Assembly (NCBI GenBank): GCA_016871535.1
Contig: VHCZ01000012.1
Coordinates: 1-54,506 of the forward strand
Direction of reading: 5' to 3'
DNA length: 54,506 bases
From: Verrucomicrobiota bacterium
Lineage (GTDB): Bacteria; Verrucomicrobiota; Verrucomicrobiia; Limisphaerales; SIBE01
Of the stretch, positions 38,889 to 40,732 are shown in pieces. A program made the translations under genes and the position numbers. A model generated the notes under the pieces. The model ran no database searches. It saw nothing but the letters and a program-made list of their open reading frames with translations, and was not told the DNA's origin. The stretch's first letter is position 1; the number at the start of each line of letters is the position of its first letter.

Positions 38889-39024
38889 AAAAGTTTCGAG
38901 AGTCAGGCGGCGATGTAGTGTGAAAGTGAGAGCGCCGGGAGATTTGGTCAAGCGAAAGGGTGCGATTCAACAGGCGGTCAACGAAGTCTTCTCCCGAGGG
39001 CGCCGATTTCGCTCTTCCCAGAAG

Positions 39025-39063
39025 CCCCTCTCTCCCGACTCGGTCCTCGCGGGGAGAGAGGGG
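39025..39063. repeat. Short CTCTCCC-type palindrome (family C)
   Basis: CCCCTCTCTCCCGAC and GCGGGGAGAGAGGGG are inverted with a short loop (39026-39063). It lies in the divergent region 38889-39286 together with the MITE at 39128. No gene is present there. Confidence 0.7.
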
Positions 39064-39127
39064 AGCCAATCGAATCGCGACGGACCGACACTTTTAATCG
39101 CATCCCAAGAGAAAGCTGGAGACTTTT

Positions 39128-39239
39128 GTAACCCCTCAGTTAAGGCAGTTAAAGTGGGGCGAGGACTCCCGCCGAGCCAATGCCATCGAGGAGAAGCTCC
39201 GCAGGAGCGTCGTGCCACCGTCGTTAACTGAGGGGTTAC
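39128..39239. mobile_element. 112-bp MITE with 16-bp terminal inverted repeats and 8-bp target duplication
   Basis: The left end GTAACCCCTCAGTTAA (39128-39143) and the right end TTAACTGAGGGGTTAC (39224-39239) are perfect reverse complements. The direct repeat AGACTTTT flanks the element exactly on both sides (39120-39127 and 39240-39247). It has no coding capacity. The interior is GC-rich with GCGAGGACTCCCGCC and GAGAAGCTCCGCAGGAGC hairpins. It ends 47 bp upstream of the enolase-superfamily ATG, so it may change its promoter or leader. Confidence 0.93.
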
Positions 39240-39286
39240 AGACTTTTCACTCGTTGCCCGAGCGTTGTCGCGCTAACGTTGTTCTC

Positions 39287-40732
39287 ATGCCAGGTCAATC
39301 CATTCGAATTCAGAGCTGCGACATTCATCTGACGAATCTGCTGACGCGCATGCCGTTCAAGTACGGCATCGCGACCATGACGCGCGTGCCGCACGCATTT
39401 GTCCGGGTGCGCGCGGACGTCGAAGGCAAGGCGGCGGCCGGCATCTCCGCTGATTTACTCCCTCCCAAGTGGTTCACCAAGAATCCGGACAAACCGGTTT
39501 ACGAGGAGATTTTTGAAATGATCAAGGTGATCCGCCACGCCGCGACGGCCGCGATCGGGTTGAGCGGGGAGACCGCGTTCGCGGTCTGGCGAAGCCTTTA
39601 CCAGCAGCAAGATGATTGGGGCCGGAAGGAAAACCTGCCGCCGTTGCTGACCCACTTCGGCACCTCACTGGTCGAACGCGCGCTGATTGAAGCCGTGTGT
39701 CGCGCCGCCGGAAAGCCGTTCCACGAAATGGCGCGGTCCAATCGACTCGGCCTGCGGCTGGGCGAAATCCATGCGCCGCTGCGCGAGAAAAATCCGGGCG
39801 ACTTCTTGCCGCCGAAGCCGCTCGACCGAATCACGCTTCGGCACACCGTGGGGCTCGTCGATCCGTTGCTGGATGAACACATCGAGCCGGCGAACCGCCT
39901 CCAGGACGGCTTGCCACAGTCCTTCGCGGCGTGCGTCAGAACCTACGGCTTGCGCCATTTCAAAATCAAAGTCAGCGGCCATCTCGATCATGACCTGGAC
40001 CGATTGGAGCAACTCGCCCGCATTCTGCAACGGGAGGCGCACCCGGAATACAAGTTCAGCCTCGACGGAAACGAGCAATTCAAGTCGCTGGCCGACTTCC
40101 GCGTGTTCTGGGAAACCTTGGAACGGACCGAGAGTTTGAAGGAGTTTTTGCGTCACCGGCTGTTTGTCGAACAGCCGCTGCACCGCGACGTGGCCTTGCG
40201 AGCCGAAGTCGCCGAGGGGTTCGCTCAATGGCCGAATCGTCCCCTGACCATCATCGACGAATCTGACGGGACGCTGGGCAGCTTGCCCGCGGCGCTGGCT
40301 CTGGGTTACGCGGGGATCACTCACAAGAACTGCAAAGGCGTGTTCAAGGGCATCGCGAACCGATGTCTGCTGACGCATCTCGAACGAGAGAAGCCGCGGA
40401 CCAAATGGATCATGAGCGGCGAAGATTTGGCGACGATCGGGCCGGTCTCGGTCATTCAGGATTTGGCCGCGATGGCGGCGCTGGGCATCCAAAGCGTCGA
40501 GCGCAATGGCCACCATTATTTTCCGGGTCTTTCGATGTTCTCCAAAGAAATCCAGGAGCAAGTGCTTGCGGCGCATACGGGACTTTACGAGCGGGGCGGT
40601 TTGGGCTGGCCGAAGCTCACCGTGAAAGAAGGGTTGCTCGATGTGACTTCGCTGCACAAACAGCCTTTCGGCGCCGGCTTTACGGTGGACGTGGAAAAGT
40701 TCACGCCAGCGGACCGATTCACACCAGATTAA
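39287..40732 (+). CDS. Enolase-superfamily (mandelate racemase/muconate lactonizing-type) enzyme
   Basis: The 481-residue protein has the capping domain (SIRIQSCDIHLTNLLTRMPF) and the barrel with a K-x-K pair in LRHFKIKVSGHLDHDLDRLE, metal ligands in YKFSLDGNEQFKSLADFRVF (Asp), LFVEQPLHRDVALRAEVAEG (Glu) and LTIIDESDGTLGSLPAALAL (Asp/Glu), and a further Lys in GYAGITHKNCKGVFKGIANR. It is probably a sugar-acid dehydratase, racemase or epimerase, and the exact reaction is not readable. It is longer than most members (about 370-440), mainly through an insertion near residues 175-230. The ATG at 39287 is chosen because residues encoded from 39212 derive from the MITE. Confidence 0.85.
   Translation: MPGQSIRIQSCDIHLTNLLTRMPFKYGIATMTRVPHAFVRVRADVEGKAAAGISADLLPPKWFTKNPDKPVYEEIFEMIKVIRHAATAAIGLSGETAFAVWRSLYQQQDDWGRKENLPPLLTHFGTSLVERALIEAVCRAAGKPFHEMARSNRLGLRLGEIHAPLREKNPGDFLPPKPLDRITLRHTVGLVDPLLDEHIEPANRLQDGLPQSFAACVRTYGLRHFKIKVSGHLDHDLDRLEQLARILQREAHPEYKFSLDGNEQFKSLADFRVFWETLERTESLKEFLRHRLFVEQPLHRDVALRAEVAEGFAQWPNRPLTIIDESDGTLGSLPAALALGYAGITHKNCKGVFKGIANRCLLTHLEREKPRTKWIMSGEDLATIGPVSVIQDLAAMAALGIQSVERNGHHYFPGLSMFSKEIQEQVLAAHTGLYERGGLGWPKLTVKEGLLDVTSLHKQPFGAGFTVDVEKFTPADRFTPD

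Follow-up and report, generated by a model that had tools for sequence, protein, structure and literature searches.

The element at positions 39128–39239 of the window (the whole 54,506-nucleotide stretch analysed here, a contig of a Verrucomicrobiota bacterium) is a genuine miniature element (MITE) of 112 bp. Judging from its ends, its target duplication and its relatives in other genomes, we consider it very probable (roughly 0.88) that this MITE is of IS66 type and is mobilised by an IS66-family transposase encoded elsewhere.

Structure of the element

By direct reading, the element has perfect 16-bp terminal inverted repeats (GTAACCCCTCAGTTAA on the left, 39128–39143, plus strand; TTAACTGAGGGGTTAC on the right, 39224–39239, minus strand) and is flanked by a perfect 8-bp target site duplication (AGACTTTT, 39120–39127 and 39240–39247), just as the original prediction had it. 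That prediction also had the repeats enclosing 112 bp; the length is right, but it includes the repeats themselves, and only 80 bp (39144–39223) lie between them. The inverted match is identical at 16/16 positions and ceases beyond, and a mismatch search of the window (up to 3 mismatches) finds the end at those two sites only, against 0.06 matches expected. A perfect 16-bp inverted pair with an outer perfect 8-bp repeat is expected about 1e-7 times per window on a uniform-base estimate. The interior, which was aligned with 12 other genomic copies, is partly self-complementary, and open frames at the element merely run through it, none being its own, so that it is non-coding. The element thus shows the full set of MITE features: a length below about 500 bp, no coding capacity, terminal inverted repeats, a target duplication and many dispersed copies.

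Downstream, and outside the element, lies a gene for an enolase-superfamily-like protein of 481 aa (39287–40732, plus strand), so named from a weak match to MR_MLE_C (21.4 bits, below the cut-off). Its ATG at 39287 leaves the predicted 47 bp between element and gene start. A longer frame of 506 aa (39212–40732) begins inside the element and had been suspected to be an artefact; comparison with a sister species confirms that the element creates it. For annotation, the 506-aa frame from 39212 is therefore wrong, and the start of the enolase-like gene is to be placed downstream of the element.

A high-copy family in the same genome

The view that this is a mobile element is upheld by its copy number in its own genome (G000; 6.67 Mb in 460 contigs). 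With up to 2 mismatches allowed, the MITE end has 102 matches there and a reversed-pattern control has 3. A whole-element search yields at least 40 alignable copies, 83–93% identical over the aligned part, the best of them having 83–92% identity to the window copy; this count is a lower bound, as 40 of 234 first-look candidates were scored. Among the 37 copies in the fetched loci that are no longer than 135 bp and in which both ends can be recognised, nine are flanked by a perfect 8-bp duplication and nine more by one with a single mismatch (18/37), while shuffled flanks give about 0.5 copies in these two classes together. Five longer copies (309–631 bp), mostly enlarged by other repeats nested within them, still have an 8-bp duplication. 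Across 146 related genomes we found only weak matches, mostly to the MITE interior, which indicates that the family expanded on or near the window's lineage.

Fold-back repeats are nested in the copies at L010, L014, L051, L179, L183 and L190 (all in G000), several of them at the TTA(A) of the end repeat, for example TTA-GTGGTCCRTTTCRTAAATACG...GGACCAC-TTA and TTAGGGTCTGTGCAAAAATAA...; these are perhaps TA-targeting (IS630-like) MITEs. The same genome also contains 28-bp palindromes made up of the two MITE ends alone with a common TTAA (L157:3150–3177 on contig C88 and L170:3001–3028 on contig C9), beside which stand 8-bp duplications (gatagaaa/gacagaaa at L157; tgaattga twice at L170). The palindromes probably arose when a longer copy, once inserted, lost the DNA between its GTTAAC direct repeats, a simpler reading than movement as such.

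Empty site and age of the insertion

The sister species G001, of the same genus, has the same upstream gene (86% nucleotide identity) and an enolase-like orthologue that is 87% identical at the protein level. Its intergenic region reads CAAGAGAAAGCTGG-AGACTTTT-GCCTCG (the left flank is also given as AAGAGAAAGCTGG), with one AGACTTTT and no element, and so presents the empty site. On the strength of this element-free site with its single AGACTTTT, the insertion most likely occurred once the two species had separated, on the lineage of the window. The predicted recent movement stands to the extent that the insertion postdates this split, but the copy itself lies about 8% from the family consensus (about eight substitutions and one inserted base in 112, by manual count) and has no near-identical sister, its closest genomic match being 91–92% identical. 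Since the 48 bases of the ends and duplications are unmutated, most of this divergence is probably older than the insertion. Copies at L130, L033 and L135 have interiors identical to one another, a sign that another subfamily multiplied in a more recent burst.

An IS66 element with nearly the same ends

The predicted IS with such ends does exist in complete form in a genome of the same order (G668), but in the own genome only two truncated pieces of a probable relative were found, at contig ends. The G668 element is an IS66 of 1,854 bp with ends GTATCCCCTCAGTGACGG / CCGTCACTGAGGGAATAC (1 mismatch in 18), bounded directly by a perfect 8-bp duplication, CATTTTTG. Its end sequence, GTATCCCCTCAGTGAC, is nearly that of the MITE: the left end agrees with the MITE family end variant GTATCCCC at 14/16 positions and with the window copy's end at 13/16. 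The transposase, a 463-aa frame, reaches 231.7 bits with the NCBIfam IS66 model NF033517 (cut-off 180) and 118.9 bits with Pfam PF03050, and a DUF6788-like ORF (39.4 bits) lies upstream of its gene. Published IS66 ends read GTAAGCGTCC... or GTAACCGTCCGG..., with the pattern GTAAGCG or GTAACCG (PMC12888890), and 8-bp duplications are reported for IS66 elements (PMC3281130). The MITE has both marks of the IS66 type, namely ends shared with an IS66-family IS and an 8-bp target duplication.

In the own genome, contigs C396 and C398 share an identical end piece of 159 bases, which begins GTAACCCCTCAGTTAC. Read towards the end repeat, these pieces encode a transposase C-terminus, ...VLHTLRKRGGDTTALFAQALDKLAAQDALSPYDALFKIDSS*; this peptide and the C-terminal end of the G668 transposase are 49% identical across 37 aa (E 1.7e-4), so that the element is probably a truncated relative of the G668 IS66. 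A further genome, G224, contains an element of 762 bp whose ends read GTAAGGCCTCAG / CTGAGGCATTAC and whose 8-bp duplication, CCCGGCAC, is perfect; its DUF6788-like ORF is about 50% identical in its C-terminal part to the C396 peptide. Caution is called for, as in G000 the TTA of a MITE end also serves as a nesting place for other elements; the view that the end repeat forms the very start of the C396/C398 element is argued from G668, where repeat and duplication bound the IS directly. The body of the C396/C398 element is missing from the assembly, a pattern search did not find its left end, and no complete IS66 element with MITE ends was found among the 460 contigs.

Several other candidates were set aside. 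The one full IS66 transposase gene found in the own assembly, on C351, lacks the MITE ends, and its surroundings yielded no pair of ends with an 8-bp duplication; it is a 983-aa frame (L122:613–3564) combining an RNase_H_2 domain (326–497) with an IS66 transposase domain (650–913). The best match in this genome to the left-end pattern GCAGAATTGTAWNCCCTCAG, on C188, is a MITE remnant and not an IS left end. At the contig edge of C72 (L203 and L027, first ~140 bases) the ORF start MKALTISDKENMIMALQDEIRRN comes after a MITE end; this is more likely another IS nested at the TA in a MITE end than the left end of the IS. DUF6788 was rejected as a marker of the parent, being found also beside other transposases, as in the CROMO_BS_46_3 genome (L222:1–1845), where the transposase next to it is presumably IS1182-like. 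That IS has ends AAGGTGTGAAAAAATT and a CTCAG duplication and apparently lies inside a GTAATCCCTCAG-ended element; the insertion in L082 is similar. Searches of viral contigs with IS66 proteins gave no matches.

Similar ends in other bacteria

An exact 16-mer search of GTDB contigs returned mostly isolated matches at about chance level, together with two genomes that have many structured copies. In the MAG N1_Bin_METABAT__110_1 (G146) the end is matched 101 times, for the most part on elements of 226 bp that have 8-bp duplications and an interior unrelated to that of the MITE; a search of this genome for PF03050 gave no match. The Deltaproteobacteria MAG DeMMO6_17 has elements of 46 bp that carry the same 16-bp end and are flanked by perfect duplications. 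We would suggest only tentatively, and think it rather unlikely, that the end type GTAACCCCTCAGTTAA, probably of IS66, is conserved across bacterial lineages and serves several unrelated miniature elements, of which the 46-bp elements and the 28-bp palindromes are the smallest and all of which have 8-bp duplications. If forms this small moved as such, the transposase would need only the ends.

Proposed mechanism and the case for another transposase

We infer from the shared ends that an IS66 transposase moves the MITE and may still be active. Encoded elsewhere, it would recognise the 16-bp ends GTA[A/T]CCCCTCAGTTAA and excise or copy the MITE; a staggered target cut at insertion, once filled in, would leave the 8-bp duplication. 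The window copy would in this way have inserted into AGACTTTT, 47 bp before the present enolase-like ATG, after the split from the sister species, and a parent IS66 element spanning C396/C398 would be predicted to carry GTAACCCC ends and 8-bp duplications. Beyond the terminal 15–20 bp the MITE interior has nothing evident in common with the IS, so that the MITE did not arise from the IS seen by simple deletion.

Alternatively, the MITE could be moved by a transposase of another family that makes 8-bp duplications (IS1595, ISL3, IS256 or an unclassified one), its likeness to IS66 ends being convergent. A likeness limited to about 16–20 bp, the full IS66 not assembled in the own genome and the result for G146, rich in similar ends yet giving no PF03050 match, are all consistent with this. 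We nevertheless regard it as improbable: a complete IS66 in the same order has nearly identical ends and an 8-bp duplication, two contigs of the own genome have an IS66-like C-terminus next to the MITE end, and GTAA with 8 bp is the published IS66 pattern (PMC12888890, PMC3281130).

Possible effects on the downstream gene

A 22-base stretch (39106–39127; CAAGAGAAAGCTGGAGACTTTT) is identical in G001 amid otherwise diverged intergenic DNA, and possibly represents a putative control site of the enolase-like gene. The element stands directly 3′ of this stretch and 47 bp before the start codon, a position that would suit a MITE by origin that at present serves as a domesticated promoter or 5′ UTR of the gene. 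We find this distinctly improbable, in that the insertion is species-specific, the orthologous gene of the sister species manages without the element, and no sigma-70-like site is seen; neither sigma-70-like nor terminator-like sites were found in 38900–39400, by a scan that may not suit this organism. The position of the element is the one argument for the regulatory effect that the original prediction suggested.

It is barely credible that the element is a functional RNA or regulatory palindrome (an attenuator or REP-like element) kept by selection and not mobile at all: the interior is strongly self-complementary and folds as a single strand (z = -5.2), and its place is intergenic and near a start codon, but the element has target duplications and an empty site, is absent at the orthologous locus of the sister species, and has no terminator-like or promoter-like site. 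Across 13 copies, 0/32 pairs had both sides changed and the covariation term was unfavourable; with no compensatory pair, nothing points to selection on an RNA structure, and an RNA function of the interior was rejected.

Relation to known systems

A literature search for GTAACCCCTCAGTTAA or for its 12-bp core returned only papers from unrelated fields, with no published match in connection with a transposon. Among bacterial MITEs, MITEAba12 is one that we take to differ from the window element in both its ends and its interior. The two are alike in being short and non-coding, with inverted ends, target duplications and several copies (PMC6382973). The MITEs of N1_Bin_METABAT__110_1 (226 bp) and DeMMO6_17 (46 bp) have the same end and 8-bp duplications, but their interiors are unrelated. 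As in the IS66 family (NCBIfam NF033517, Pfam PF03050), the ends begin GTAA or GTAT and the target duplication is 8 bp, whereas the MITE is 112 bp long and codes for nothing. The related IS found here departs in its turn from the classic IS66 trio of tnpA, tnpB and transposase, having a DUF6788-like small ORF and a transposase. We conclude that the MITE family is most likely IS66-type and that it is new but of a known type, lineage-specific and otherwise ordinary. What the analysis contributes is a MITE family of high copy number for which there are a probable IS66 partner, a documented empty site and a defined end, the last also present on unrelated small elements of other bacteria; with this, one can test what IS66 transposases minimally need as a substrate.
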